A stretch of 42,574 bases of DNA, taken from positions 1 through 42,574 of the forward strand of contig JAURMR010000010.1 of the NCBI GenBank assembly GCA_030830565.1, written 5' to 3'. Source of the stretch: Acidimicrobiales bacterium. GTDB taxonomy: Bacteria > Actinomycetota > Acidimicrobiia > Acidimicrobiales > Acidimicrobilacustridaceae. The notes beneath the pieces are model-generated. The model saw only the letters and a program-made list of their open reading frames with translations. It had not been told where the DNA came from and did not search any database. The translations under genes and the position numbers were made by a program. This document shows positions 435 through 33,136 of the stretch, piece by piece. The number at the start of each line of letters is the position of its first letter. Within the stretch, counting starts at the first letter, position 1.

Positions 435-1544
435 TCAACCAGTGAAGGCAGGCACCACGGGAACTGGTGAACTCGTTGAGGTAGTCGACGAACTCGTCGG
501 CGAAGGGGGTGTCGGGCCGGGACCCCAAGACGGCGTCGAATTCTCGCCGATGCTTGTCAACGCAATCTGGTTGGAACCGTCGGTAGTCATCGTTGTTAGT
601 TGGTAGGTTCCCGACGCACGTGACGCGAAGAGGATGAGCTGCCCATCCGGAGAGAATTTCGGTAGTTTGCTCCGAGTCCCCGAGCTCGTCAGTTGTGTTC
701 GATAAGAACCGTCGGCGTTCATCAAGAAGATCTGATAGTTCGAACCTGAATCCTCGACGTAGACGATCTTCGAGCCATCGGGTGACCACGCCGCAGCGAA
801 GTCGTAACCCTGTCGCGTCGTCAGTCGAGTGCGGTTGGACCCGTCTGCATTCATCGTGCAGATTTCGAGGTTCGAGTCGTTTTCGGGTTCGCAGGTGAAA
901 ACGATTTTCGTTCCGTCAGGTGACCAATTGGGTTCGATGTCGAATCCAGGTGTATTTGTCACGCGAACTTGGTTGGAGCCGTCGGCATCCATCACGTAGA
1001 TCTCCTCGTCGCTGTCACGTCCTGAGGAGAAGACGACCTTCGTGCCGTCGGGCGACCAAGATGGCGATTCATTCTGACCACCAGAGGTGGTGAGTTGCGT
1101 GAGATTCGAACCATCGATGTTCATGATGAAGATCTGGCGGACGCCTCCGACACCTCCTTCGAACACAATTCGATCTCCGCTCGCATTCAACGACGGATAG
1201 GCATCGGTGTCGCTCCGTGTCGTCAGCCGAGTCTGGTTGGAGCCGTCGGCGTCCATTAGGTAGATCTCGTCGTCGCCGTCCCTGTTGCTCGAGAACGCGA
1301 TCTTCCCGTTCGGGCCGGGGAACGTTTCTGAGCCGGCTCGATCAGCCAGAAGTAGAGCCATCGAACTGAAAACCAATACGAGAATCGAAACCGATGCGAA
1401 TGTCTTGGAAGTATGCACGATCGCAGTCTGCCGCAATCGCGCATTACTTCCAAACACCGATTCTGGGGCAAACGTAATTGCGGGCGAGATGGGAGAAGGA
1501 CGCGTTTGAACGGTCTTGAGACTCGCCCGAGACCAGTCAGACAC
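435..1544 (-). CDS. Exported TolB-like (PD40) beta-propeller protein
   Basis: The 369-residue product has a hydrophobic export segment near residues 49-66, then about six PD40/TolB-type blades recognisable by repeated DADGSN.TRLT and SPDGTKIVF motifs. A Ser/Thr/Pro linker follows and the protein ends PVVPAFTG. PD40 propellers usually bind protein or carbohydrate partners outside the cytoplasm; no catalytic residues are visible. The GTG start at 1544 has GAGG six bases upstream. A start at GTG 1418 would give a more normal signal peptide but lacks a ribosome-binding site. The last eight residues are nearly identical to those of the unrelated propeller ending at 3686, which suggests a common sorting signal. 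Confidence 0.85.
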   Translation of the reverse strand: MSDWSRASLKTVQTRPSPISPAITFAPESVFGSNARLRQTAIVHTSKTFASVSILVLVFSSMALLLADRAGSETFPGPNGKIAFSSNRDGDDEIYLMDADGSNQTRLTTRSDTDAYPSLNASGDRIVFEGGVGGVRQIFIMNIDGSNLTQLTTSGGQNESPSWSPDGTKVVFSSGRDSDEEIYVMDADGSNQVRVTNTPGFDIEPNWSPDGTKIVFTCEPENDSNLEICTMNADGSNRTRLTTRQGYDFAAAWSPDGSKIVYVEDSGSNYQIFLMNADGSYRTQLTSSGTRSKLPKFSPDGQLILFASRASGTYQLTTMTTDGSNQIALTSIGENSTPSWGPGPTPPSPTSSSTTSTSSPVPVVPAFTG

Positions 1545-1735
1545 ACTTCGCCTCGCAGAACGAAAAGGTGGAACCCATCACCTCCCGATTTCTCGAAAGG
1601 GCTACTTCAAGAGATTCTTTGCACGCGAAAACCGATTGCCGGTCCTGTTACGAACTTCGGTGCACCGACCGCTTTCCTCGCAGGCGGAAGTATCGATCCA
1701 TCCCCGATGCTGCTGGCCTCTTCAAGTGATCGTTT

Positions 1736-1741
1736 TAAGAT
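1736..1741 (+). promoter_or_regulatory. -10 box, leaderless promoter of the DUF4287 gene
   Basis: TAAGAT is followed by six bases and then the ATG at 1748, so transcription should begin at or next to the start codon. No Shine-Dalgarno sequence is present. Confidence 0.45.
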
Positions 1742-1747
1742 CAAGTA

Positions 1748-2302
1748 ATGAGCGCCAGTTCCGGTGATCGTTCCAAGCACTTCCCTGCCATTGAGCGCAA
1801 GCATGATCAGCCGATGCAGTATTGGTTTGACCTTTTGGCGGAACACGGCGAGGCAAAGTACGACGAACAGATGGCGCTTCTGCGCGACGGGCATGGGTTT
1901 AGCCAAGCTCACGCCAATGCGGTGGTGATGACTCATCGCGGGTCTACAACTACTCGACGCTTCGCTGATCCCGCGGCGTATTTCGCGTCGCTTGACCCGG
2001 CCAAAGCGGCCACTGCGCAGGCGATTTTTGCGGCGATTCAGAAGAGGGTGAAAGGGCTCGAACTTGTCACGGCATGGAATCAGCCGATGCTTCGAAATGA
2101 GTCCGGCTATGTGTTCGGACTCAGCGCTGCGACTGCGCATCTCACGCTTAGCCCGTTGAGTAGTGAAGTGATGGCGCAGTTCGCCGACCGCCTCGCAGGC
2201 CTGAAAGTGAACAAGAAGACCTTCAGCGTGCCCATTGGTTGGAAAGTCGATGCTGCGTTGCTGCAGGACATGGCAGAGGCGCGAATCGTCGAACTCGGCT
2301 GA
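1748..2302 (+). CDS. DUF4287 and DUF1801-like protein
   Basis: The 184-residue cytoplasmic protein has an N-terminal DUF4287 domain (about residues 15-65; KHDQPMQYWFDLL and GFSQAHANAVV motifs) and a C-terminal YdhG/DUF1801-like domain (about residues 72-178; WNQPML, LTLSPLS and FSVPIGWKVD). Both domain families occur in small actinobacterial proteins of unknown biochemical role, and no enzymatic residues can be named. It is monocistronic, with a leaderless-type -10 box just upstream. The dispersed repeat copy B begins 18 bp after its stop codon. Confidence 0.85.
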   Translation: MSASSGDRSKHFPAIERKHDQPMQYWFDLLAEHGEAKYDEQMALLRDGHGFSQAHANAVVMTHRGSTTTRRFADPAAYFASLDPAKAATAQAIFAAIQKRVKGLELVTAWNQPMLRNESGYVFGLSAATAHLTLSPLSSEVMAQFADRLAGLKVNKKTFSVPIGWKVDAALLQDMAEARIVELG

Positions 2303-2319
2303 GAAGCGGGCCGAGTCAG

Positions 2320-2355
2320 GCGCGAATCTCGGCGCGTCGGCCCGGAAGTCATGGG
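2320..2355. repeat. Dispersed 36-bp repeat, copy B
   Basis: Second copy of the repeat at 147-182, with four mismatches and the same orientation. It lies between the DUF4287 gene and the seven-blade propeller gene. Confidence 0.6.
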
Positions 2356-2489
2356 CGAACCCCCTTCGCGGTGATGCCCAGGTCGAGAAGTTGTCCACCA
2401 GGCGCTACGCCACATCCGCGCTGGTGATGGCGCTCTCCGTTATCGTCTGAATTCAGCGGAGTGCCTCTGATCCATCCTTTGGAGACCCC

Positions 2490-3686
2490 GTGATCGCACG
2501 TAAGCCAGTCGTCGTCCTTGCATTGCTTGTGTCGTTCGTGTTCGGCTCGATCGTCGTTGCAAACCCTGCGGGCGCAACGATCAATTCAGCGGTCATCGTG
2601 CCGAGCCCTAATGTTGGTTCTTCCGCGAGTCAACTGGTTGCGGTGGACTGTGTGAGCGAGTCGTGGTGTGTCGCTGTCGGAACTGCGACCGTCTCGACCG
2701 CGAGCCGGGCGCTCATTGAAGTGTGGGATGGCGCAGCGTGGTCAGTGATGTCGAGCTCGAATTCCGGTGTTACCGACGGTCTTTCTTCCGTGTCATGTGT
2801 GAGCGCGTCATGGTGCGCTGCAGTTGGTCTTAGCAACACGGGCTCGAATCACGTGACGTTGGCAGAAGTCTGGGACGGAACGACGTGGTCGATTGTGTCA
2901 AGTCCGAATGCCGGCAATGTCAATGACAGGTTCAATTCCATCTCGTGTGTGAGTCAGTCGTTCTGTGTCGCTGTTGGAACGACTCAAGTGGGTTCGATCG
3001 ATCAGACGTTGATCGAAGTGTGGAACGGGAGTTCGTGGTCAATCGTTTCAAGCCCCAGTCCAGGTCCTGACGGCAGCACCCTCTGGGACGTGGGGTGTTT
3101 GAGTCAGTCGTGGTGCGTTGCGGTTGGCAAAACAGTGTCAAATTCAGCAACAGAGACGTTGGTCGAAGGTTGGAATGGGTCGACGTGGTCAGTGGTGTCG
3201 AGTCCGAATGCCGGCACAATCTTCGACTACTTAGGTTCTGTTTCGTGTGTGAGCCAAACGTGGTGCGTCGCGGTGGGAGTGTCACAGCAGGGATCTGTGG
3301 GTCGGAACTTGGTGGAGACGTGGAATGGGTCGACGTGGTCTGTGGTGTCGAGTCCGAATGTTGGCGCTGGTGCCAACAATTTGTATTCGGTGTCGTGTGT
3401 GAACCAGTCGTCGTGTGCTGCAGTCGGCGTAGTCAACAATGGCAGTAACGATGCAATGTTGATTCAGGCATGGAATGGTTCAAGTTGGTCGATCGTCTCA
3501 AGCCCAAGTACATCGCGTAACAACTTCTTGGGCGGGGTGTCATGCATGAGCGACTCGAAGTGTTTTGCGGCTGGGACCTTTACCTCCTCACCTGTCGAAA
3601 CGTTGACGGTGATGTTGAACGGTTCTGGGTCATCGCCGTCAACGACTGTGCCTTCGGATCCTGTCGTGCCAACTTTCACTGGTTGA
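2490..3686 (+). CDS. Secreted seven-repeat, disulfide-rich beta-propeller-like protein
   Basis: The 398-residue product has a Sec signal peptide (residues 1 to about 29, ending NPAGA) and seven repeats of about 49 residues. Each has the form SVSCvsqsWCvAVG...LiEvWNGssWSvVSSPN.G. Each repeat carries two cysteines six positions apart (C-x5-C), likely a disulfide outside the cell. Seven repeats suggest a closed seven-bladed propeller. The last repeat runs into a Ser/Thr/Pro linker and the terminal sequence PVVPTFTG. The GTG start is chosen because GGAG lies five bases upstream and the signal peptide starts there. The DNA of neighbouring repeats is similar, pointing to internal duplication. The function is probably adhesion or ligand binding, but this is inferred. 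Confidence 0.85.
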   Translation: MIARKPVVVLALLVSFVFGSIVVANPAGATINSAVIVPSPNVGSSASQLVAVDCVSESWCVAVGTATVSTASRALIEVWDGAAWSVMSSSNSGVTDGLSSVSCVSASWCAAVGLSNTGSNHVTLAEVWDGTTWSIVSSPNAGNVNDRFNSISCVSQSFCVAVGTTQVGSIDQTLIEVWNGSSWSIVSSPSPGPDGSTLWDVGCLSQSWCVAVGKTVSNSATETLVEGWNGSTWSVVSSPNAGTIFDYLGSVSCVSQTWCVAVGVSQQGSVGRNLVETWNGSTWSVVSSPNVGAGANNLYSVSCVNQSSCAAVGVVNNGSNDAMLIQAWNGSSWSIVSSPSTSRNNFLGGVSCMSDSKCFAAGTFTSSPVETLTVMLNGSGSSPSTTVPSDPVVPTFTG

Positions 3687-3690
3687 CAGT

Positions 3691-4317
3691 TCAGAACTGC
3701 GGAGTTGCGCCCTCGACCTTTGCGTCGGGATTCGTTGCAGGGTCGCCTTCTGGGAGCAGACCTTCCATCCACGGCCCCATTTTCCAATCGGGCACGGGTG
3801 GTTCGTGCGTTTCGCTCGGAACAAAGGTTGAGCGTTCCACGAGTTCGTAGTGATGCACGTACCGACGACAATTGACGAAGACCTGTTCGGCCCGAACTCG
3901 AACGACCATTTTCGTTCCGGGGAAGAGGGCGAGTGCGTCGTCGTCGGTTTCGATTGTCGCGGTGCCGTTCAGTCGCAATCGTGTTCCATCGGTGAAGTTC
4001 ACAAAGAGCAGTCCGACATTTGGATTGACCGTGATGTTGCCGGTGCTGAGGAACATTCCATTTCCGTCGTACACGGGGAAGATGATCGTGTGTTGATCAA
4101 TCACACGCACGAAGCCAGGTTCGCCCCCTTTGTACGAGCACTCGGGTCGGCCATGTTCGTCGGCAGTCGCGAGGAAGAACATGTCCCTGGCTTCGATGAA
4201 GCGCGCGAGGTCTTCGGATATCTCGTCGGTGGTGATGTCGGCGAGTAAACCTGCAAGACGTGTTGAATCGAACTGTTCCTGTAGTTCGATTTGTCCGCTG
4301 TGGTAGTCGCGTCCCAT
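3691..4317 (-). CDS. Pyridoxamine 5'-phosphate oxidase-like FMN-binding protein
   Basis: The 208-residue protein has the split-barrel fold of PNPOx-like flavin proteins: FLATADEHGRPECSYKGGEPGFVRV, then the IIFPVYDGNGMFLSTGNI segment and NVGLLFVNF. These are the FMN-contacting strands of the family found in small actinobacterial oxidoreductases acting on F420, FMN or haem-type substrates. The exact substrate cannot be told. The frame opens at GTG 4350, but ATG 4317 has GAGG six bases upstream and the GTG has no ribosome-binding site. It converges on the propeller gene with only four bases between the stop codons. Confidence 0.85.
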   Translation of the reverse strand: MGRDYHSGQIELQEQFDSTRLAGLLADITTDEISEDLARFIEARDMFFLATADEHGRPECSYKGGEPGFVRVIDQHTIIFPVYDGNGMFLSTGNITVNPNVGLLFVNFTDGTRLRLNGTATIETDDDALALFPGTKMVVRVRAEQVFVNCRRYVHHYELVERSTFVPSETHEPPVPDWKMGPWMEGLLPEGDPATNPDAKVEGATPQF

Positions 4318-4459
4318 GGGTGGCCTCGTTTCGTTGATGTCGGAACCCACGTTCGCAGGTTGCGGGTGTGAGCGAGAGCTTCCTGTTTCAGCTTGCTGAC
4401 GAGCAGTTCTGAATCGGGAATGAGTCGTTTGACCTATTCACGCCATTGCCGGCGATCTC

Positions 4460-4465
4460 TACACT
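4460..4465 (+). promoter_or_regulatory. -10 box, leaderless promoter of the DUF222-HNH gene
   Basis: TACACT is followed by seven bases and the ATG at 4473. It supports that ATG over the upstream TTG at 4446, which would lie before the expected transcription start. Confidence 0.45.
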
Positions 4466-4472
4466 CGAACAC

Positions 4473-5894
4473 ATGTTCGATACCGCTACGTCCGATTGCA
4501 TCGAGGTGAACAGCTCCATCGGGAGCGGTTGCGACGTTTCTCTTGGCGTGGCGTCGCCGCTTGCGCAGTTGCAGCGGGCGGTCGATGCGCTCTCGGAGTG
4601 GGGCGTGTCTGCCGATGGGCAGTCGTTGGTGGTGTTGCGTCGTGAGATTGATCGGTTGAGCGCGCTCTTGGTTGAGGCCGAGGTTCGGTTCGATAGTGGT
4701 GAGGTGTGGCGAAACGATGGCGCGGGGTCGTTTCGTGGGTGGTTGCGTGACCGTGCAGAGTTGGGATTGAAGGCGGCGACAGTCGAGGCGCGTCGGGTGG
4801 AACGTTTGGAGGCGTGGCCTGAGGTAGCGGCGGCGTGGGTTGAAGGTCGGTTGTGTGGCACAAAGGTCGATGCATTGGTGACGGGTGTGCCGCGTCGGTT
4901 TGTATCGTTGTTTGCCGATCACGCAGCGGGTGTGGTGAAGGCGATTGCACCGTTAGATGTCGAACAAACCACGGTGGCGGTGCGCCAGTGGGTGCGTGCT
5001 GCCGAAGCGGCCGATGGTGCTGAGGAGTTTCGTGAACGTCCGTCTGGTGTGTATCTCGATGCCGGGTTTGATGGTTCGTTTGTGTTGAACGGTGTGTTGA
5101 ATTCGACTGAAGCAGCGATTGTCGATGCCACGTTGCGGGTCTTCGATGTGCCCGACGCGCTCGATGAACACGGCGAGATTGTTGGTGATGTGCGCACACG
5201 CGCGAAACGTCAGGTCGACGCGCTCGTCGCAGCGTGTGAGTTTGCGCTGAATAACCGTGAAGGAACGGGCGAGTCGGGTCGGTTTCAGCCGCATGTGTCG
5301 CTGGTCTTCGATGTGCAACAGCTGCGTGCTGCTGGTTTGGCTGGTGCCGGGGTGGGTTCGCTGGCAGATGTCGACGTGTTGGCCGAACGCAACGAATGGT
5401 CATCTGCCGAGAAGGCCTGGTTCGCTGATGCGTTGAGCTTGCATGGCGATGGTGTGACTGGTGAAGGAATGCTGGTTGATGCCACGGCGATGTCGGCACT
5501 GTCGTGTGACTCGGTTGTGCATGCGTTGCTTACAAACGGTTCGCAGGTGCTGCGGATGGGTCGAAGCGAACGAACTGCGAAACCCTGGCAACGAAAAGCG
5601 ATTGTTGCCCGAGACCGGCATTGTCGAGCACCGGGATGTCGTACAAAACCGAAATTCTGCGATGTCCATCATGTCGATCACTGGATCAATGGAGGAAAAA
5701 CCGATGTCGACCGGATGGTGTTGTTATGCGGCACGCACCATCGCGAGTTTCATAAACCCGGTTACCGAATGGAATTCGCCGAAGACGGCGCATTCACCGT
5801 GCACTCCCCGAACGGGTGGAGTCGGTCAACCCTGCCCGAACACCTCGAGAAACCAGTGTTTCGGAAAGGCGAATGCAGCGACGACGGGTTCTGA
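4473..5894 (+). CDS. DUF222 domain HNH endonuclease-like protein (13E12 repeat family)
   Basis: The 473-residue protein has a long helical DUF222 region followed by a C-terminal HNH nuclease domain. The nuclease domain shows RDRHCRAPGC, then CDVHHVDHWINGGKTDVDRMVLLCGTHH, with the conserved His-His pair and the CxxC/CxxH zinc ligands. This family is multicopy in actinobacterial genomes and is related to mycobacterial 13E12 repeats; its members are thought to be DNA nucleases, possibly selfish, but the role is not established. The ATG at 4473 is preferred (leaderless -10 box; family members often begin MFD). The last codons lie in a 15-bp tandem repeat that continues past the stop. Confidence 0.92.
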   Translation: MFDTATSDCIEVNSSIGSGCDVSLGVASPLAQLQRAVDALSEWGVSADGQSLVVLRREIDRLSALLVEAEVRFDSGEVWRNDGAGSFRGWLRDRAELGLKAATVEARRVERLEAWPEVAAAWVEGRLCGTKVDALVTGVPRRFVSLFADHAAGVVKAIAPLDVEQTTVAVRQWVRAAEAADGAEEFRERPSGVYLDAGFDGSFVLNGVLNSTEAAIVDATLRVFDVPDALDEHGEIVGDVRTRAKRQVDALVAACEFALNNREGTGESGRFQPHVSLVFDVQQLRAAGLAGAGVGSLADVDVLAERNEWSSAEKAWFADALSLHGDGVTGEGMLVDATAMSALSCDSVVHALLTNGSQVLRMGRSERTAKPWQRKAIVARDRHCRAPGCRTKPKFCDVHHVDHWINGGKTDVDRMVLLCGTHHREFHKPGYRMEFAEDGAFTVHSPNGWSRSTLPEHLEKPVFRKGECSDDGF

Positions 5895-5921
5895 GACGAT
5901 GGGCTCTGAGACGACGGGTCT
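5881..5921. repeat. 15-bp tandem repeat across a convergent gene junction
   Basis: ACGACGGGTTCTGAG (5881-5895), ACGATGGGCTCTGAG (5896-5910) and ACGACGGGTCT (5911-5921) form 2.7 imperfect copies. The array covers the stop codons of both the HNH gene (5892-5894) and the converging lipoprotein gene (5920-5922). Confidence 0.75.
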
Positions 5922-6924
5922 ACGAAACCGCCGACGCCCGAAAGCACCCGATGAAGTAGGGGAACTCAGAAGTGGCGGAGTAGTGGTACATCTCGACAAC
6001 TTTGCCGTCGAGATTGATGCGTGAGGTTCGCCCGTGGCACTGGTCAAGGTCAGCGTTGGTCGGAAGGTTCCCGCTGGCGTCACGCTCGACGACGATGGGG
6101 TAGCCGTCGTAGGCATAGCCAACAACGGTGGAAGATCCGGTGGCGGCGTTGCGAATACAGGAGGGGATGTCGTGGTAGTGGTACACGCTGGTTCGCTGCG
6201 GGTGTCCGTCGCATTTGTCTTGAGTTTCGTAGGCAACGGCGTCGCGATTGAGTTCATCGAGCGAGGCAAAAAGCGAGACCCCGTTCTTTAAGACGCCGAC
6301 ACGACCCTTACCAAGGCACGTCGGTGTGACTGCGGCGGTTGGGTTCACCGGAAGTGAAAGCTTCACGTCACTGCTGGCAATTCGATTTGGATTTCGGTCA
6401 TACGCGTAGGCAGGGTCGCTTGAGGCGATGGGGAATGTTCCCGTGACCTCACCAACCGGAAGTCCATTGCTCGTGATGTTGCGTGTCGAACCGCTGACCG
6501 TTTCCGAATACGACGCCATTGGCCAGGAAACCGCTCCCTGAACCGAAATCTTCTTGGTCAGGTCCCAAGTGCCTGCGGTTTCATTGAGCCACGGGCCGGC
6601 GGCATGAGCGCCACCGCCCCGGGAGTTCCCTGCGTCGCACGCGAAGAGTCCTCCAACCGAGGCGCCGGTGAGAGACACCTTTGAAGTACCGATCGGAAGT
6701 TTCGTTGTGTCGGCTGGTGGTCCGACCCAGGTGTTCACGATCAAATCGCCGGTAGCCGACGCTGGCGATGTTGAGGACGATGATCTAGAAGACTCCGATG
6801 CGGAGCTTGAAGGCGCGGAATTACTTGAGCTCGAACATGACGCAAACACGAGTGGTGCAATGAGTGCAAAGCCGAGCGCAAGAGCGATCACAACAACGTT
6901 GCGGAATTGGTAGTCACGTTTCAT
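5920..6924 (-). CDS. YHYH domain lipoprotein
   Basis: The 334-residue protein begins with a lipoprotein signal peptide ending FASC, then a Ser-rich linker. The rest matches the YHYH family: VYHYHDIPSC, GYAYDGYPI, LDQCHG and a final YHYSATSEFPYFIGCF, where the second motif is usually YHYH. Members are surface proteins of unknown function with conserved cysteines and histidines that could bind metal. The frame opens at 6966, but ATG 6924 gives a proper signal peptide, whereas the upstream ATG adds 14 residues that would spoil it. The FUSC-like gene lies 84 bp upstream on the same strand, and the pair may be co-transcribed. Confidence 0.88.
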   Translation of the reverse strand: MKRDYQFRNVVVIALALGFALIAPLVFASCSSSSNSAPSSSASESSRSSSSTSPASATGDLIVNTWVGPPADTTKLPIGTSKVSLTGASVGGLFACDAGNSRGGGAHAAGPWLNETAGTWDLTKKISVQGAVSWPMASYSETVSGSTRNITSNGLPVGEVTGTFPIASSDPAYAYDRNPNRIASSDVKLSLPVNPTAAVTPTCLGKGRVGVLKNGVSLFASLDELNRDAVAYETQDKCDGHPQRTSVYHYHDIPSCIRNAATGSSTVVGYAYDGYPIVVERDASGNLPTNADLDQCHGRTSRINLDGKVVEMYHYSATSEFPYFIGCFRASAVS

Positions 6925-7008
6925 GAGGTTCTCGCTCGGTGGTTTCGTTCGGGGCGGGAGCGCCATTCGCTCCGTCAGGACGTTGCGGCATTGCTCTTTG
7001 AGGCAGGT

Positions 7009-8220
7009 CTACGAGTGCACGACTGCAGTGTCGTTCTGCGTACTCGCTGCTCTGAGGCGACCGGCACCAATGGTGATGCCTGCTGCGATGATGACAAGCG
7101 CGGCGCCAACGAGATTGTCGACCAAACGCTGTTTGCCGATATCGCTGGCCGCACTCATGGTGTACGCGTTGAGTAGCGCCGCGGTAGGCGTGATGAGGAT
7201 GTAATAGATCCATTGACGCGGACTGAATTTCGCGATGATTGCGCCCACGCCAAACACTGCACCGACGATGTACAAGTTGACGGGCATTGGAATGCCGACC
7301 ACTTCGGTGTACTTCGCGTGTCCCATGAGCGCCATGAGTCCGATGAGCGCAACAAGGCCTCCAAACGTTCCAAGCACACGCTGAAGCGTGAGTTTCCACT
7401 CAATATCGCTGCCAACTTGAGTCAGCACAAGGATCGTGGCGATGAAGAATGATCCCGAGGTTTGCTTGGGGTGGTCAATGAAGTAGTACATCGCCACGCC
7501 GGTTAAGACGCAGATCGTGATCGTGTAATTGAGCGCTTCGCTGCGCGGGTTTGGTTTGGGCGTCGGAAGATCGCGCTTGCGGAGGACGAAGTGCAGGAGC
7601 ACGACAGGGACAATCGCTCCGACAAAGAAAAAGACGATGACCCATGTGAGATACGTGGTGTCGAGACGCAGGTCGACCATGGCGTGATGAATGGTGGTGG
7701 CGTTTGAACTGGAGGATCCGCCTCCGCTTCCACTGGCTTGAGCCTTGCTCAATGCATCGGACAGCGTCAGTCCGTTATTGGTGATGATGGTTTTGAGTTG
7801 CCCGAGTTCCATTCGGGGAAGCCACGGAATCGGCGACAGCATCGGCCAGGCCAAGAAAATTGGTACGAGCATGCTTGCGCGGTGCAGACCAAACAGCGAG
7901 AGGCGCCCAACCATGAGTGTCATCAGAATCATCAGGACCGCACCGGTAATGGGCGAGAGGCCAGCGACGATTGCGAGCGGCGCGAGTAGTGCAGCAACCA
8001 GCGACGTGAGGATGCCAACGCGGAGGCCGCCCGCAAGCAGCGCAAATGCGCCGATCAGTGCGCCCATTGCTGCGTAGGTCGCTGAGGGTTGTTTCGTGAT
8101 GATGAGCAGCACGGCCGCCGGCACGATGATCAGCGAAAAGAGGGCAAGAGCAATGCCCGTCCGCCGCATGACGATTGCCGCACGGGGCATCTTCGGCGTG
8201 GTGTCTTGAACTGAAGTCAT
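7009..8220 (-). CDS. FUSC-like integral membrane protein
   Basis: The 403-residue protein has about ten hydrophobic segments in two halves separated by a Ser/Gly-rich extracytoplasmic loop (around residue 165). The second half carries the FUSC/aromatic-acid-exporter hallmark LQRVLGTFGGLVALIG followed by YYILITPTAALLNAY. FUSC proteins export aromatic or fusaric acids, but this one lacks the usual large cytoplasmic domain, so transport activity is inferred. The ATG at 8220 is chosen because GGAG lies seven bases upstream. It is divergent from the sigma-factor gene with 99 bp between the starts. Confidence 0.8.
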   Translation of the reverse strand: MTSVQDTTPKMPRAAIVMRRTGIALALFSLIIVPAAVLLIITKQPSATYAAMGALIGAFALLAGGLRVGILTSLVAALLAPLAIVAGLSPITGAVLMILMTLMVGRLSLFGLHRASMLVPIFLAWPMLSPIPWLPRMELGQLKTIITNNGLTLSDALSKAQASGSGGGSSSSNATTIHHAMVDLRLDTTYLTWVIVFFFVGAIVPVVLLHFVLRKRDLPTPKPNPRSEALNYTITICVLTGVAMYYFIDHPKQTSGSFFIATILVLTQVGSDIEWKLTLQRVLGTFGGLVALIGLMALMGHAKYTEVVGIPMPVNLYIVGAVFGVGAIIAKFSPRQWIYYILITPTAALLNAYTMSAASDIGKQRLVDNLVGAALVIIAAGITIGAGRLRAASTQNDTAVVHS

Positions 8221-8284
8221 CAGAAATCTCCGTCGCAGGCGACTGTGCATCGCAAAGTGGGGGCGAACCTACTTCGGATGGCCA

Positions 8285-8313
8285 TCATCCGTTTTTGACC
8301 TCAGGATCGGAGT
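8285..8313 (+). promoter_or_regulatory. ECF promoter of the sigma-factor gene
   Basis: TCATCC (8285-8290), 17 bases and CGGAGT (8308-8313) form a -35/-10 pair that is repeated with identical hexamers and spacing before the fasciclin gene. It resembles the mycobacterial SigK promoter (CCATCC and CCGAAT). Six bases separate the -10 box from the GTG start, the same leaderless geometry as other genes in this window. Confidence 0.7.
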
Positions 8314-8319
8314 AGAGGC

Positions 8320-9009
8320 GTGACGCTTCTGCCGCTTGAGAGGGAAAACCACCGAGATCTCTCTGTCCCGATGCCTCAGAACGCCCAGTTTGTGCCACGG
8401 TGGGGGTCGCGTCCTATGCCTCTTCGTCGAACCTCTGCCCCAGTTTTAGCGATCGCGACGGACGTTGACTTGATCGCGGGGATTATCAACCGTGATCCTG
8501 AGTCATTGGCCGAGGTCTATCGGCAGCATGGCGGCGCGGTCTATGGACTGAGCCGCAGGGTCCTTGGCGATGATTCGCTAGCTGAAGACGTCACGCAGGA
8601 ACTGTTCCTGCGGCTCTGGAATGAGCCGCGTCGGTTCGATCCAAATCGCGGAACCTTGCGGTCGTTTCTTCAGCGTCAAGCCCACAGTCGATCTGTTGAG
8701 CGAGTCCGGTCGGAAGAGGCGCGACGGAAACGTGAGGATCGTTCCGTTGCTGTTGACGTGAGGCCAATCGAAGACCTCGAATCTGATGTCGTTGCTTCTC
8801 TTGAGTCTGATCGGATCCGCCGTGCGCTCGAGTCGCTCGATCCGGATGAGCGTCGCCCAATCGTGTTGGCCTATTACGGCGGCGCTTCCTATCGCGACGT
8901 TGCTGTCCGACTGGATCTTCCCGAGGGGACAGTAAAGAGTCGGATTCGAACGGGACTTCGACGTTTGTCGTCGTTACTTGAAGATGGTGGACCGGAGGAG
9001 GAGCGATGA
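8320..9009 (+). CDS. sigK: SigK-like ECF RNA polymerase sigma factor
   Basis: The 229-residue protein contains sigma region 2 (LAEVYRQHGGAVYGLSRRVLGDDSLAEDVTQELFLRLWNEPRRFDPNRGTL in outline, about residues 65-115) and region 4 (LDPDERRPIVLAYYGGASYRDVAVRLDLPEGTVKSRIRTGLRRL in outline, about residues 170-215). It directs RNA polymerase to a dedicated promoter set. The following anti-sigma gene overlaps it by four bases (ATGA), so the two are translationally coupled. The family is usually about 190 residues; the extra N-terminus comes from using GTG 8320, which fits a leaderless transcript. ATG 8416 would give a 197-residue protein. The shared promoter upstream implies autoregulation. Confidence 0.9.
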   Translation: MTLLPLERENHRDLSVPMPQNAQFVPRWGSRPMPLRRTSAPVLAIATDVDLIAGIINRDPESLAEVYRQHGGAVYGLSRRVLGDDSLAEDVTQELFLRLWNEPRRFDPNRGTLRSFLQRQAHSRSVERVRSEEARRKREDRSVAVDVRPIEDLESDVVASLESDRIRRALESLDPDERRPIVLAYYGGASYRDVAVRLDLPEGTVKSRIRTGLRRLSSLLEDGGPEEER

Positions 9010-9758
9010 GCGAGTATTCGAATGTGAACTCCGGATCCGACGACGTCTCCGAACTTCTCGGTGTCTACGTGCTCGATGCCGTCGACGATGTTGAACGTCG
9101 TCGAGTTGAGCGCGCTGCTGCAGCCGATCCGCAGATTGCAGCGGAAATTGAACGCCTGAGGGTGGCTTCTGATGCGCTCGGCGCTCGTGCCGACCTCGCT
9201 CCGCCCGCCGGATTGTGGGAGTCGATCCAATCCAAGATCGAACCAACTGCTGTCGCCGGTGGTTCCACTTCGAAGACTGCGACTCAACGCAGAGCTGCCC
9301 GACCATCTCTGGGTCGGCCGTTGTTCCTCGCAGCAGCAGCCGTTGCTGTTGTCTTTGTTATCGGCGCCGGGCTCATCAGCGTCACTCGATCATCGAGCCC
9401 CACCGATTCGGTGGCGTCAATGACTGCGATGGCCAACGACGCAGCGACGAAACCTGGTACTCGGCAGGGCGTTTTGACCGATCCTGACAACACGATGGAA
9501 GTTCGAGTCATCGTGGATGCATCAGGCCATGGTTTCGTTATGTCTGATCCTCTCCCAGCGCTTCCCGACAACGAGACCTATCAACTCTGGTCAGCAGCCA
9601 ACGGCACGATGGTGTCGCTCGGCATGCTGGGTTCGAATCCAGAGATGTCATTGGTCGCGATCGACGGAGCAGTGACTGAACTTGCTCTTACTCGTGAGCC
9701 AGTTCAGGGGAGTGTCTCGCCGACCTCGAACCCCATGGCAACAGGTCGCTTGATCTGA
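9006..9758 (+). CDS. rskA: RskA-type anti-sigma factor
   Basis: The 250-residue protein has a cytoplasmic sigma-binding domain (about residues 12-80), a single membrane span (about 104-126) and an extracytoplasmic RskA domain with ETYQLWSAANG and SLGMLG motifs. No zinc-binding HxxxCxxC motif is present, as in mycobacterial RskA. It should hold the upstream sigma factor inactive at the membrane until it is proteolysed or senses a redox change. Overlap with the sigma gene and the adjacent fasciclin gene match the SigK/RskA regulon layout in mycobacteria. Confidence 0.9.
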   Translation: MSEYSNVNSGSDDVSELLGVYVLDAVDDVERRRVERAAAADPQIAAEIERLRVASDALGARADLAPPAGLWESIQSKIEPTAVAGGSTSKTATQRRAARPSLGRPLFLAAAAVAVVFVIGAGLISVTRSSSPTDSVASMTAMANDAATKPGTRQGVLTDPDNTMEVRVIVDASGHGFVMSDPLPALPDNETYQLWSAANGTMVSLGMLGSNPEMSLVAIDGAVTELALTREPVQGSVSPTSNPMATGRLI

Positions 9759-9790
9759 TTTTCGGAAACTCAAAAAACTTTCGATCTGCG

Positions 9791-9819
9791 TCATCCGGAT
9801 CGGGGGTTGGCTTCGGAGT
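9791..9819 (+). promoter_or_regulatory. ECF promoter of the fasciclin gene
   Basis: TCATCC (9791-9796), 17 bases and CGGAGT (9814-9819). Hexamers, spacing and the following AG match the promoter at 8285-8313, while the spacer differs. Expected transcription start is near 9826, leaving a leader of about 38 bases with AAGGAG six bases before the ATG. Confidence 0.7.
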
Positions 9820-9863
9820 AGGGGTGAAGCACATCACGGTGCTGAAAACCCAAGGAGCTCCGC

Positions 9864-10418
9864 ATGTCTATTCGCCCCCTCAAAGTTGTTGGTGGTCTCA
9901 TCGTCGCAGCGTCATTGACGCTCGGTGCCGTCGCTTGCAGTAGCGACTCGAAGTCAAGCTCGTCTGACACAACGGCAAAGTCGAGCGCATCGACAACAGC
10001 CCCGATGAAGTCCGAAACCATTGTTGACATTGCTGCTGGCAACGCCGACTTCTCGACCCTTGTTGGCGCAGTGAAGTCCGCTGGTCTCGTGGAAACCCTC
10101 TCGGGCAAGGGCCCATTCACGGTGTTTGCACCTACGAACGAAGCATTTGCGAAGCTCCCCGCAGGAACGCTTGCATCGCTCACACCGGAACAGCTCAAGT
10201 CGATCCTCACCTACCACGTCGTTGCCGGTGAAGTTCTGGCCAAGGACGTGAAGCCAGGCAAGGTCAAGACCGTGAACGGTCAAGAACTCACCATCAATGT
10301 CAATGGCGGCAAGGTCACCATCACTGACGCCAAGGGCAACACGGTCAACGTTGTGAAGACCGACATTGTTGGTAGCAACGGCGTCATCCATGTCATCGAC
10401 GGCGTCCTGATGCCGTAG
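9864..10418 (+). CDS. Fasciclin-domain lipoprotein (MPT70/MPT83-like)
   Basis: The 184-residue protein has a lipoprotein signal (lipobox AVAC, Cys25), a Ser/Thr-rich linker and one fasciclin/FAS1 domain (about residues 52-183; [26 protein letters not shown] and [12 protein letters not shown]). FAS1 domains act in adhesion at the cell surface. In mycobacteria the homologous MPT70 and MPT83 are the main SigK targets, and here the gene directly follows the sigma and anti-sigma genes and has its own copy of the candidate ECF promoter. Start codon and ribosome-binding site (AAGGAG) are clear. Confidence 0.95.
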
Positions 10419-10459
10419 TTCGATCTGCGGTACCAGCACTGAACAACAACTGCATGAAC

Positions 10460-10493
10460 GAGCGGGCCTGGGAGTTTCCTAGGCCCGCTCTTT
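10460..10493 (+). terminator. Rho-independent terminator after the fasciclin gene
   Basis: GAGCGGGCCT (10460-10469) pairs with AGGCCCGCTC (10481-10490). Three further pairs, one a G-T wobble, close an AGTTT loop. It is followed by a short T-run. This is the strongest hairpin in the window. Confidence 0.85.
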
Positions 10494-10579
10494 CCGTTCG
10501 CTATCAAGGGTGTACGTGCGGCGGTTGGGGGTTCTGGCCAGCGCGTAGAGTTTCGGCTTTGGATTGAGGAGGCGCCGTC

Positions 10580-12637
10580 GTGACCGAGTGTGGTGAAGAG
10601 TCAGTTCCTGAAGGATCGGTGACGCGCCGACAGGTCTTGAAGGGCGCTGGTGCTCTCGGAGTTGCTGCCGCAGCAATGGCTGCTGGCGTCGCCCCGTCTG
10701 GCGCAACGCCGACGGCGCCGACGATCGCTCCGCGAACCTTTGTCCCGCGCGGACCGCTCACGACCCAACCAAATTTCCTCGTGATCATCGTCGATGAACA
10801 GCGATTCCCGGTTTCGTACGAATCGGCCGCGCTTGCCTCTTGGCGTGCGTCGAATCTTCCGGCGCAGAACCAACTCATGGCGAACGGTATGTCATTTCGC
10901 AATCACCACATCATGGCGACTGCATGCGCCCCGAGCCGAACGTCGCTCCTCACGGGCCAGTACCCATCGCTGCACGGCGTCACGCAAACCTCGGGCATTG
11001 CAAAGTCAGCGCTTGAACAAGATCTCTATTGGTTAGACCCGACAACGGTTCCCACAATGGGAAGTTGGTTCCGTGCAGGTGGATACGACACCTATTGGAA
11101 AGGAAAGTGGCACGTTTCCGACGCCGATCTCTATACGCCCGGTACCCATCAGCCATTTCCTGCGTACAACGCAGACGGAACCCGCAACCTGACAGCAGAG
11201 AACATCTATCTCCAAGCAGACATGTTGGATGAGTTTGGATTCACTGGCTGGATTGGACCCGAACCGCATGGTTCCAACCCCATGGATTCCGGTTCGTCAG
11301 CGCCTGGCGGCGGTGGTCGTGATGACGCTTTTGCCGAGCAAAGCGTCGAACTCATGCAAAACCTTCGCAATTCGCAGAACCCATGGTTGGCGGTTGCCTC
11401 CTTTGTTGATCCGCATGACATCGTGCTTTGGGGGCAACTCGCGTTGCTCGCGGGTCAACGGAGTCCATCAACTTCGTTGAATCTTCAGGGGCAACTGAAC
11501 GGTTCAAATGTGCCTACTGATCTTTTTGATCCCGTTGCGTGGGCACAAACGTTCACTGATGATCTTTCGCAAAAGCCTGATGCGCAAGCAAGTTACGGCG
11601 AGACCTATCCGAAGTCGCTTCAGCCAACACTGACGAACTCTGACTATCAGCGCTTCTACTACCAGTTGCAAAAGACAGTTGATGCACATATCAAAGCGGT
11701 GATTGATGCAGTAACCGCGGACAACATGACCTACCGCGAGACGATCATCATTTACCTCTCCGATCACGGCGATCTGCTTGGTTCGCACGGTGGTCTGCAT
11801 CAGAAGTGGCATGTTGCCTATGACGAAGTGATGAAGGTTCCGTTCGTGATCCACAATCCGGTGGTCTTCCCGTCGGGGGGAACAACTGACGTGCTCACAA
11901 GTCACGCCGACCTCCTGCCCACGATGCTTGGACTCGCAGGTCTTGATCAGTCGGCACTTCTTTCGCAACTCTCGCAAACTCACACCCAAGTGCAACCGCT
12001 ACCCGGTCGTGATTTGTCTGATTTCTTGCTTGGTCTTTCGACGGAATCTTCGATTGCAAATGATCCCCAGTACTTCATGACTGATGACGAGCCGATGCGT
12101 GGCGCGAAGCAAGTTGGTTGGAACGGAACGATGTACGAAGCGGTCGTGCAGCCGTGTCATCTCGAAACAGTTGTCGCAAATCTCCCGACGGGGCCTTTGG
12201 GCCAGATGGAGCGGTGGAAGTACACGCGTTATTTCGACAACCCAAATTTTTGGAGCACTCCAAATAGTCGTGACGTGCAGACGATTGTTGATGGCGTCAC
12301 ACAACGACCGGGTCCGAAGGCTGCGAACACAACTTTGAAACAGTCCGCTGTTCCCGATCAGCTTGAGATCTACAACACGTCGGAAGATCCGTTGGAGCTT
12401 CGCAACATTGCTTCTGATCCGGGACTCATGGCAACGCCGCGCATTTCTGGGATCGTGCAGCAGCTCCAGGACTTGCTCACGCAGGAGAGAAGCGCAAAGC
12501 GCTTGCAGCCTACAGGGTCATCATCGGCATCTTCGACCTCGGGCATGTTCCGCTTCGGTTCAGAAGCTGATTGGGCGCAGCTTTTGCAAAGTGATTCGAG
12601 CGACTCCGAAGAAGCCGTTCCGAAGTTCACGAGTTAG
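10580..12637 (+). CDS. Tat-exported type I sulfatase
   Basis: The 685-residue protein starts with a Tat signal (TRRQVLKG at residues 15-22, then an Ala-rich stretch). The alkaline-phosphatase/sulfatase domain starts with NFLVIIVDEQR (metal-binding Asp near 72). It contains the sulfatase signature C116-A-P-S-R120 with TG at 125-126, where the Cys is normally converted to formylglycine, and a downstream SDHGDLLGSHGG metal site. It probably releases sulfate from an external ester; the substrate is unknown. The GTG start has GAGGAGG seven bases upstream. The C-terminus is Ser-rich and ends AVPKFTS, similar to the tails of the two propeller proteins. No maturation enzyme is encoded here. Confidence 0.93.
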   Translation: MTECGEESVPEGSVTRRQVLKGAGALGVAAAAMAAGVAPSGATPTAPTIAPRTFVPRGPLTTQPNFLVIIVDEQRFPVSYESAALASWRASNLPAQNQLMANGMSFRNHHIMATACAPSRTSLLTGQYPSLHGVTQTSGIAKSALEQDLYWLDPTTVPTMGSWFRAGGYDTYWKGKWHVSDADLYTPGTHQPFPAYNADGTRNLTAENIYLQADMLDEFGFTGWIGPEPHGSNPMDSGSSAPGGGGRDDAFAEQSVELMQNLRNSQNPWLAVASFVDPHDIVLWGQLALLAGQRSPSTSLNLQGQLNGSNVPTDLFDPVAWAQTFTDDLSQKPDAQASYGETYPKSLQPTLTNSDYQRFYYQLQKTVDAHIKAVIDAVTADNMTYRETIIIYLSDHGDLLGSHGGLHQKWHVAYDEVMKVPFVIHNPVVFPSGGTTDVLTSHADLLPTMLGLAGLDQSALLSQLSQTHTQVQPLPGRDLSDFLLGLSTESSIANDPQYFMTDDEPMRGAKQVGWNGTMYEAVVQPCHLETVVANLPTGPLGQMERWKYTRYFDNPNFWSTPNSRDVQTIVDGVTQRPGPKAANTTLKQSAVPDQLEIYNTSEDPLELRNIASDPGLMATPRISGIVQQLQDLLTQERSAKRLQPTGSSSASSTSGMFRFGSEADWAQLLQSDSSDSEEAVPKFTS

Positions 12638-31510: not shown

Positions 31511-33136
31511 TTATCGGTGACGGACCTTCTTCACAATCCAGATACCAAGAAGGATCAAGAGAGCTAAGGCGATCACGACGACAAGAATGATGAGGGCAAC
31601 AGTCCAAGCGATCAAGCGTTTGGTTTGGGTGGGTGTCAGATTGCGTTGAATGTCGGTCGTCGATGAAATACGAAGATTCGTGATCTTGGCCACAGCCGAC
31701 TGCGAAGCGGCTGATCCACGAGTCGGACCTTGAACAACAAGTGACAACGTGTGCGAGCCCGAGCCAATGTCATAGAGGATGAGGAAGCGTCCGTCAGTTC
31801 CGGTCCCTTCGACGGGTGGAGCAAAGGTTGAGCGTTCACGTCCGTCGATAAACAGATGGAAGGTGTCAGTCGCCAGTCCGGCAACAGATGCATCGAAGGT
31901 CAACCAGAGTGAGTCCTGGTCCGTCGTGAATTCGAAATTTGCAACGGTGTCTTGGGCGGTTGCGACGGCAAGACCTGCATTTGGGTCATCAATCGCAGTG
32001 GAGAGATAGTCGACCGATGCATTTTGTGTCGGTGGTGGCGCGACACCTTCCGCAATGAGCGCAAGTTCCTGTGAGGGGTCTGGTGAAGTCTGCTGCCAGG
32101 TTGTGGCGAGCGAAGAAACCGGCCCTCCGAGCAACGGTGACCACCAAAGGCCAACGCCAGAAGTTTTCGATGCGGCCGAATCGGCGTACCAGCCGATGGG
32201 GTACTGGTGCTTATCGACACCGGGGTCTGAGGACGGCGGCTTCAAATGCACATCGACGACTTGCCCAAGCCCTGGATACCCCGCGTAGGGCTCACCGACG
32301 AGAGAGATGTAGTTGTCAACAAATGTTTGGTTCGGGCCGCGACCTACATCGAGTCGAGTCAGTTTGTAGCGAAGATCGTTCTTTGCTCCGCCAATACGAG
32401 CGAGGTTTACCTCGGGTGAATCAAACAATGTGAGTTGTCGCGGGGGAACTGAGAGCCCGAGTGCAGCAGTGGTTGCGACGTTTGCGCCGAAACTGTGTCC
32501 AATCAGGTGGACCTGGCCTCCATTCGTTGAGAACGCAGAGGAAAGCGATTGATCGACCACAGTTGCCATCCGGTGACCATTCACTTCTGTTGCACGTTCG
32601 GGCGCGTAGGCCGCAAGTGCGCTCATATCGGTCGCACTTTGATCAACCCAGCTGTACATGAGGATCGTTGCGGTGGGATCTGCAGCTTGAAGCGATGACG
32701 CCAGATTTGCGAATAACGAGATGGAAGGTTGTCCGGTTTTCGGGTCGACCATCGCAGGATTCCACATTGTGACGAGGTCCGCCGACGTTGCCTGCGCATT
32801 CTCGTAGGTTGCAAGGAGCCCAGCAGCCCAACCATGTGTCATCACGATGACGTTCCCGCCATTGATCGATTCCGGTGCAACTGAAGCGAAGGTCGTCCCG
32901 TTCCATTTGCCAAGACGTTGCGAAAGCGGGAATGGGCTGACGTTTGTTTGCAGGGTCTCGGGAACTCCAGCAGGAGCGGGATAGGCCGAGAGCGGTGTTG
33001 GAACCGATGCATTGAGAATCGAACAACCGGCAATGACGAGAGTGCAGAAGGCAATCGAAACGGCGAACACCCGCGATCGGCGAATCGGCAGTCGAGAACG
33101 CAGAGCAACGTCTTTGGTCGCAGGTGTTGAAGTCAC
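31511..33136 (-). CDS. Membrane-tethered lipase-like alpha/beta hydrolase
   Basis: The 541-residue protein has a lipoprotein-type signal (lipobox IAGC, C38) and an alpha/beta-hydrolase domain related to pancreatic-type lipases, with nucleophile S215 in IGHSFGAN, VMTHGWAAG for the oxyanion region and LFDSPEVNL. A beta-rich region follows, and a C-terminal membrane span (about 508-535) ends in basic residues (KKVRHR). The enzyme would sit outside the cell, held at both ends. It probably hydrolyses lipid or ester substrates. The start is GTG 33136 with no strong ribosome-binding site. Confidence 0.85.
   Translation of the reverse strand: MTSTPATKDVALRSRLPIRRSRVFAVSIAFCTLVIAGCSILNASVPTPLSAYPAPAGVPETLQTNVSPFPLSQRLGKWNGTTFASVAPESINGGNVIVMTHGWAAGLLATYENAQATSADLVTMWNPAMVDPKTGQPSISLFANLASSLQAADPTATILMYSWVDQSATDMSALAAYAPERATEVNGHRMATVVDQSLSSAFSTNGGQVHLIGHSFGANVATTAALGLSVPPRQLTLFDSPEVNLARIGGAKNDLRYKLTRLDVGRGPNQTFVDNYISLVGEPYAGYPGLGQVVDVHLKPPSSDPGVDKHQYPIGWYADSAASKTSGVGLWWSPLLGGPVSSLATTWQQTSPDPSQELALIAEGVAPPPTQNASVDYLSTAIDDPNAGLAVATAQDTVANFEFTTDQDSLWLTFDASVAGLATDTFHLFIDGRERSTFAPPVEGTGTDGRFLILYDIGSGSHTLSLVVQGPTRGSAASQSAVAKITNLRISSTTDIQRNLTPTQTKRLIAWTVALIILVVVIALALLILLGIWIVKKVRHR

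Follow-up and report, generated by a model that had tools for sequence, protein, structure and literature searches.

The C-terminal pentapeptide Px(F/Y)TG of Acidimicrobiia is, with a probability of about 0.6 as judged from sequence comparison, a surface-sorting and anchoring signal that would be captured at the free C-terminus after export. This reading is based on a motif that lies exactly at the C-terminus, is associated with export signals, stays conserved although the linker before it is hypervariable, and gives way to SLH or LPXTG anchors in relatives. The tail is given here as found in the window (the whole stretch of DNA analysed, 42,574 nucleotides) and in related genomes; its occurrence is confirmed and extends far beyond the window.

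Results

Tails of the three window proteins

An earlier note on this DNA described a shared tail, VPxFT(G/S), on three unrelated exported proteins. The three tails are found at stop codons as described and are encoded by different codons (Table 1). The main domains are indeed unrelated (PF07676 propeller; PF00884 sulfatase; repeat protein with no Pfam match above the cut-off), and all three proteins carry export signals: the N-termini of the PD40 and seven-repeat proteins are Sec-like, and that of the sulfatase is Tat-type (TRRQVLKG). Close homologues of the sulfatase (72% and 87% identical, both collected via the tail pattern) end in VPEFTG and VPKFTG; at the sequence level, the final S of the window sulfatase is a variant of the terminal G. 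Tail-bearing relatives exist for all three proteins, but they were collected through the tail and hence give no measure of its loss.

Table 1. Tail-bearing proteins of the window and their C-terminal features
Feature	Position	Strand	Characteristics
PD40 (WD40-like) beta-propeller protein	435..1544	-	369 aa; exported; tail-bearing; PF07676, E 1.4e-40
Ser/Thr/Pro-rich linker preceding the PD40 protein tail	462..524	-	GPGPTPPSPTSSSTTSTSSPV
PD40 protein C-terminal tail and stop	435..461	-	PVVPAFTG
Seven-repeat secreted protein	2490..3686	+	398 aa; Sec-type signal; tail-bearing; relatives with the tail in alignment A3
Ser/Thr/Pro linker preceding the seven-repeat protein tail	3621..3659	+	GSGSSPSTTVPSD
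Seven-repeat protein C-terminal tail and stop	3660..3686	+	PVVPTFTG
Sulfatase	10580..12637	+	685 aa; tail-bearing; PF00884, E 5.7e-42
Sulfatase Tat-type signal region	10622..10708	+	TRRQVLKGAGALGVAAAAMAAGVAPSGAT
Ser-rich acidic linker preceding the sulfatase tail	12515..12613	+	
Sulfatase C-terminal tail and stop	12614..12637	+	AVPKFTS; S variant

Abundance and consensus

The VPxFTG-stop pattern (GTNCCNNNNTTYACNGGNTRR) has 11 matches in the 2.0-Mb genome carrying the window vs 2 for the reversed control. All 11 coincide in frame with the end of an open frame; six of these frames extend past the fetched stretch, and one is just 54 codons long there. The same pattern has 121 matches in 37 genomes of the family vs 3 for the reversed control, and a broader pattern has 163 vs 7 in 10 family genomes. 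Up to 30 pattern matches, not all read as frames, are found in one genome (G293).

Some family genomes have zero strict matches. They were initially taken as tail-less, a view that was dropped since their orthologues carry variant tails (TPAFTG, APAYTG, GPVYTG and similar endings). The core is therefore Px(F/Y)TG at the free C-terminus: the tail proposed in the earlier note is real, but its V and F are mere preferences and the final S is a variant. In 200 unique tails (collected on Px(F/Y)TG), position -6 is mostly V, A or T (L in 4 tails), -5 is P, -3 is F or Y, -2 is T and -1 is G; the last residue of the tail is Gly, rarely Ser or Ala. Among 1053 proteins (370,401 residues) of the fetched stretches, the motif stands at the C-terminus in 69 cases and inside the chain in 6, the terminal count being inflated by the choice of stretches around tails.

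Of 128 frames, alignment A1 omits the 22 shorter than 90 codons and, among the remaining 106, another 8 that were near duplicates or probably arose by chance. In alignment A2, VPxFTG is invariant in all nine rows (chosen for the tail) and the linker is unalignable. The P, T and G codons of the tail vary, so what is conserved is the peptide rather than a stretch of duplicated DNA. A recently copied DNA cassette, already discounted in the earlier note because codons differ among bearers, is rejected.

Association with export

In the fetched stretches, which had been selected because they surround tails, a crude signal-peptide rule predicts 259 exported soluble proteins; 52 of them carry the tail vs 13 of the 731 others (Fisher odds ratio 13.9, P 5.6e-21). 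The excess on exported proteins that the earlier interpretation called for is thus found within this sample. In the fetched stretches of the window's own genome, 14 of the 15 tail genes encode an export-like N-terminus and the remaining one is truncated at the edge of its contig. The 13 tail proteins not called exported include two adjacent ubiquitin-domain proteins (G316) that lack an evident signal peptide.

Bearers have unrelated domains and mostly Sec- or Tat-type signals; as both types share the tail, it would act after export. As with C-terminal sorting tags in general, one genome has many exported proteins that end exactly in this tail but are otherwise unrelated. The sorting or secretion signal first proposed stands as a short, helix-free C-terminal signal used in a tag-like manner, mostly on exported proteins; for the matching processing gene proposed with it, no candidate emerged.

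Orthologues and replacement by anchors

A profile search with the A2 family over 11 genomes of the window's family gave 11 strong matches, located in 10 of these genomes. Nine of them end in Px(F/Y)TG (one, from G145, being itself a query row), so that the tail is retained in most orthologues of this family. One ends in PRYAG, and one (L291 of G413) carries three SLH repeats at the tail's place (PF00395, E 1.5e-35). A further protein (L300 of G020) ends in LPLTG, a helix and RRR; L039, with a VPRFTG end, shares 41% identity with it over 389 residues. Each swap is a single case. They narrow 'sorting or secretion' towards surface anchoring. Another strong A2 homologue of G020 (L293) has neither tail nor anchor.

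The NCBIfam choice-of-anchor Q domain is matched by 18 of 98 tail proteins. Among 30 loci of this domain in tail-poor or tail-less genomes, three (G161, G027, G199) have LPSTG, LPATG or LPTTG and a helix behind it; in these 30 loci, nine proteins stop at the domain end or within about 12 residues past it, so the domain alone is no proof of anchoring.

Neighbouring genes and sortases

Only common metabolic families recur beside tail genes (clustering of 40, later 79, stretches, each with the window). Seven neighbour clusters passed a stricter rule; judged by eye, two are SDR and the others are of enoyl-CoA hydratase, acyl-CoA dehydrogenase, thiolase, aldehyde dehydrogenase and alcohol dehydrogenase type. 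An ABC-transporter-like cluster (7 genomes) of the 40-stretch comparison is absent from the clusters of the 79-stretch comparison. Sortase domains are encoded by 34 of 37 family genomes and 23 of 24 other genomes, so that almost every genome has them whether or not it bears tails; the family's sortases mostly read TLMAC. Sortase was the obvious candidate partner; its presence lends no support, as it does not track the tail. Neither the neighbours nor the sortases yield a candidate for the matching processing or export gene predicted earlier.

The tail could be a helix-free sortase signal: sortase would cut between T and G of Px(F/Y)TG, free one glycine and join the protein to the wall. This is unlikely. 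The Thr-Gly end resembles that of LPXTG, whose T-G bond is the cleavage site of sortase (PMC13251363), sortases are widespread, and LPLTG takes the tail's place in a homologue. However, the tail has no substrate-holding helix and its P-to-T spacing is one residue longer. Classical LPATG-helix-RRR proteins coexist with tails (G316, G328), similar sortases are found by profile search in genomes with few or no tails (G048, G072, G190, G095), and a genome with a tail gene (L032 of G103; 87% complete) has no sortase found. The second sortase has a patchy occurrence (G403 gives two matches, G023 a single one). The coexistence with LPATG proteins and the independence of sortase presence would place the putative tail system beside sortase/LPXTG.

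Taxonomic distribution

The Px(F/Y)TG tail is patchy in further families of Acidimicrobiia. Near relatives differ in it: G258 from other f8 genomes, G277 from G227 and G338, and the f41 genera g102/g115 from g111; G110 has ATFTG. A scan for VVPAFTG-stop (one genome per species) gave 47 stretches. In-frame ends of at least 90 residues belong to records titled Acidimicrobiales, Microthrixaceae, Candidatus Microthrix, Actinomycetota, Actinomycetes bacterium and to MAGs titled Bifidobacterium breve; the remaining in-frame ends are under 90 residues. VVPAFTG-pattern matches in Sphingomonas and Streptomyces have no stop-ended tail. Outside Acidimicrobiia, the broad pattern reaches a maximum of 6 matches per genome in the wider phylum (G561; pattern matches, frames not read). 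Phage origin was considered: VVPAFTG-stop, the one variant scanned, has 0 matches in viral contigs.

Discussion

Proposed mechanism

In the anchoring reading, a bearer would cross the membrane through Sec or Tat owing to its N-terminal signal. Its C-terminus, usually (V/A/T)PxFTG after a Thr/Pro-rich linker, would then be free outside the membrane, with no membrane helix holding it. A dedicated envelope factor (receptor or transpeptidase) would capture this pentapeptide and fix the protein to the cell surface. As no partner gene was found, this mechanism is an inference, both in its surface-anchoring outcome and in the reading of the free carboxyl end. More tentatively, the tail may define a separate class of sorting system in Acidimicrobiia, in which a soluble, helix-free pentapeptide, recognized at its carboxyl end following Sec or Tat export and with its own receptor or transpeptidase, would operate beside sortase and would be gained or lost as a unit.

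Two other roles are improbable. Tail-specific proteases recognize a C-terminal position and a free carboxyl end, which the tail offers; a quality-control tag marking export-failed precursors or unprotected exported proteins for such a protease would however not be expected to be swapped for SLH or LPLTG anchors or to follow a Thr/Pro-rich linker. Equally doubtful is a second-step secretion signal giving release through an outer layer without anchor, which would suit bearer enzymes that possibly act off the cell (GH5, GH10, sulfatase, PhoD, M28 peptidase), since the tail is replaced by retention modules (SLH, LPXTG) and Acidimicrobiia have, to our knowledge, no outer membrane.

Comparison with known systems

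Like LPXTG signals, the tail is C-terminal, is carried by exported proteins and includes Pro and Thr-Gly; LPXTG shares with it the place in the homologue and after choice-of-anchor Q domains described above. Unlike them, it has no Leu as a rule, so that it is not an LPXTG-like pentapeptide, and its motif forms the last residues of the protein, with no hydrophobic helix (tails were collected as motifs directly before the stop) and no basic end. As for PEP-CTERM, GlyGly-CTERM and MYXO-CTERM, a short C-terminal motif is found on many unrelated exported proteins per genome, with a patchy distribution. PEP-CTERM comprises a motif, a helix and a basic cluster and belongs to bacteria with two membranes (PMC1569441); the tail is a motif alone, in actinobacteria, and has neither the PEP motif nor the helix nor the basic cluster. 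SLH domains occupy the tail's place in one orthologue, but are folded repeats of about 44 residues vs five for the tail.

T9SS C-terminal signals are carried by varied exported proteins of Bacteroidota, with possible surface attachment, and are folded domains of about 70-80 residues. The tail shares the C-terminal site and the variety of exported bearers, but has no conserved folded domain: conservation is limited to the 5-6 end residues. No sorting-signal model is among the NCBIfam or Pfam families listed (25 of 63 and 25 of 62) for the 98 tail proteins, nor over the tail in two sets of 8 single proteins; short motifs can escape HMMs. No description of this tail was found in a search of the literature on sorting signals and on the motif letters.

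Significance

The C-terminal sorting tags compared here from the literature, LPXTG and PEP-CTERM, include a membrane helix that is believed to keep the substrate in place for the enzyme. If the anchoring reading is true, a bare, helix-free C-terminus of five residues can code for surface attachment, and an undiscovered receptor or ligase is predicted. As the tail is patchily distributed, its partner should be findable by phylogenetic profiling. The tail could serve as a minimal display tag. Located at a site where relatives have established surface anchors, it looks like an undescribed surface-attachment tag of freshwater actinobacteria, and would open access to the surface proteome in uncultivated members of this group.

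Tails of the window and of its genome

The earlier note had described a common tail, VPxFT(G/S), on three exported proteins of the window. All three tails were found directly before the stop codons, as claimed (see the table). The domain scan bore out that the carriers are unrelated; for the seven-repeat protein, a Pfam search gave nothing above cut-off. The proposed export signals were also recovered: Sec-like N-termini in two carriers, Tat-type (TRRQVLKG) in the sulfatase. Another exported protein of the window has no LPXTG motif despite a C-terminal membrane helix and a KKVRHR end.

The window is contig 43 of its genome (2.0 Mb, 71% complete). The strict pattern, VPxFTG-stop, has 11 matches in this genome vs 2 for the reversed pattern (control). 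All 11 are in-frame ends of open frames, six of which extend beyond the fetched stretch; the carriers include beta-helix proteins, propellers and a PARCEL-repeat protein. With any residue allowed at the last position, two further tails are gained, VPAFTA (391-residue frame) and VPKFTS of the sulfatase; a 55-codon frame that also matches is excluded from the count. An export-like N-terminus is encoded by 14 of the 15 tail genes covered by the stretches from this genome; the remaining gene is truncated at a contig end. Three tail genes lie near each other on contig 36: the N-termini of the first two are alike, and one other predicted gene separates the second from the third.

Tails and other C-termini. 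Coordinates are those of the tail in the first three rows and of the gene or genes in the rows below. G, genome; L, fetched locus; A2, alignment of one orthologue family of tail bearers; SLH, S-layer homology.
C-terminus	Source	Coordinates	Strand	Carrier
PVVPAFTG	window	435-461	-	PD40 propeller
PVVPTFTG	window	3660-3686	+	seven-repeat protein
AVPKFTS	window	12614-12637	+	sulfatase
KKVRHR	window	31511-33136	-	exported protein, hydrolase-like by eye
APAFTG, VPAFTG, APAFTG	own genome, L271	8045-11488		three tail genes
VAPNFTG	G316 contig 14, L256	15991-16686	+	ubiquitin-domain gene
VVPGFTG	G316 contig 14, L256	16709-17401	+	ubiquitin-domain gene, adjacent
VPTFTG	G145			A2 match, itself an A2 row
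TPAFTG	G410, G260, G414			A2 matches
TPSFTG	G407, G410			A2 matches
APAYTG	G408			A2 match
APRYTG	G035			A2 match
GPVYTG	G403			A2 match
TPRYAG	G415			A2 match, variant outside Px(F/Y)TG
three SLH repeats	G413			A2 match

Tails among exported proteins

The earlier note read the tail as a terminal sorting or secretion signal and proposed to look for an excess among exported proteins. Such an excess was found. The fetched stretches have 990 complete frames of 100 residues or more, and tails end 52 of the 259 that were called exported and soluble vs 13 of the 731 others (P 5.6e-21; the stretches were selected to contain tails, and export was called with a crude signal rule). Of these 13, several have a hydrophobic start further in or an apparent truncation. 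Two are the ubiquitin-domain proteins of G316, a genome of the window's genus, with no evident signal peptide: in each, a ubiquitin domain (PF00240, E 3.5e-28 and 8.7e-31) at the N-terminus is fused to an unknown domain. Within the 370,401 residues of the fetched stretches, Px(F/Y)TG stands at the C-terminus 69 times vs 6 internal; the commonest last three residues are FTG (61), YTG (8), then RRR (7).

Breadth of the motif

The motif is wider than strict VPxFTG. In A2, VPxFTG is invariant in 9 of 9 rows (picked for the tail) and the linker is unalignable. The family resembles squalene-cyclase-like toroids by eye; a Pfam search of one member (L123) gave no match. When 32 genomes were searched with the A2 profile, 11 proteins matched strongly (E at most 1.2e-76). 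They come from 10 of the 11 genomes that belong to the window's family, and nine end in Px(F/Y)TG; since the tail is part of the model, the search is partly informed by it. Four genomes taken as tail-less under the strict pattern (G403, G407, G260, G035) were rejected as such: their A2 orthologues end in Px(F/Y)TG, so these genomes do bear tails. Outside the window's family, weak matches in family f41 end in VPRFTG (G028, G076), and the match in G196 ends without tail. In G020, a strong match (L293) is without tail and a weak match (L300) ends in LPLTG, helix and RRR; L300 is 41% identical across 389 residues to the VPRFTG-ending L039 of G076.

The profile built from 200 unique tails, which were collected by the core motif itself, prefers V, A or T at -6 and has F (182) or Y (18) at -3. 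The linkers contain 18% Thr and 14% Pro vs 9% and 6.5% in protein bodies.

Distribution

At least one strict match occurs in 30 of 37 genomes of the window's family (121 in total vs 3 controls, summed by hand). An initial set of loci gave 128 unique tail frames, 106 of at least 90 codons; 98 were aligned and domain-scanned. The NCBIfam choice-of-anchor Q domain is found in 18 of these 98; others include propeller, fibronectin III, sulfatase and GH10.

The class-wide scan of 395 genomes used the broad pattern CCNNNNTWYACNGGNTGA, with 163 matches vs 7 controls in 10 genomes of the window's family. Outside this family matches are patchy: f41, G060 21, G119 17, G044 10, G028 and G076 9 each, G064 4, G048 and G072 only 1 each; f21, G277 14, G338 2, G227 0; f8, G258 10, the remaining nine genomes 0 or 1; f52, G218 4, G103 3. 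Raw pattern counts are 4 in G131 and 3 each in G004, G096, G127 and G383. Gene reading confirmed tail bearers in G258 (e.g. LSPRFTG), G277 (e.g. APAYTG) and f41, among them ice-binding, GH5, BNR and collagen-repeat proteins. A choice-of-anchor Q protein of G110 (f9, L461) ends in AAATFTG, which suggests a Pro-less variant in another family. In the phylum scan (396 genomes), the highest count outside the class is 6 raw broad-pattern matches in a genome; G561 (f94, 2.0 Mb) has 6 vs 0 controls.

Sortases and partner search

Of 37 family genomes 34 have a sortase domain, as do 23 of 24 other genomes, and sortases do not follow the number of tails in these genomes. G083 has 20 tail matches and one sortase; in G103, with a tail gene, a sortase was looked for and none found; G048 and G072, both tail-poor, carry a similar one. 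LPATG-helix-RRR proteins are found together with tail genes in G316 and G328. Clustering of tail-gene neighbourhoods for a partner gave nothing but metabolic families. At six loci (L178, L180, L185, L193, L197, L202) the sortase that these family genomes share, with active-site motif TLMAC in most, adjoins a membrane gene and a gene for an ABC ATP-binding protein, which resemble cytochrome c biogenesis ccmA/ccmB.

Relation to known sorting tags and proposed role

MYXO-CTERM and GlyGly-CTERM are other named CTERM tags. The LPXTG and PEP-CTERM sorting signals, as described in PMC13251363 and PMC1569441 respectively, consist of motif, helix and basic end; the Px(F/Y)TG tail differs from both in having no helix. 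A literature search, largely without subscription papers, found no report of this tail. The tail is best seen as a variant of the C-terminal sorting tag, and it may well form a separate class.

Tat-type bearers (the window sulfatase, L015, L416) and Sec-type bearers end in the same tail, which would place its recognition after export by either route. In a tail that has no helix, the most straightforward target for recognition would be the free C-terminus.

Relatives carry SLH repeats (G413) or an LPXTG signal (L300) at the tail position. Thirty choice-of-anchor Q loci of tail-poor or tail-less genomes were compared: three have LPXTG-type ends with helix (LPSTG, G161; LPATG, G027; LPTTG, G199), one a helix with SRRR (G314) and one ends in ATFTG (G110); nine end at or shortly past the domain (G030, G243, G050, G207, G087, G010, G368, G142, G020); four are longer with no recognised signal (G303, G013, G214, G048); six extend past the fetched stretch and six are unresolved. 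Surface anchoring is therefore favoured: the ends of these relatives and of the choice-of-anchor Q proteins point to it as the role that the tail may serve.
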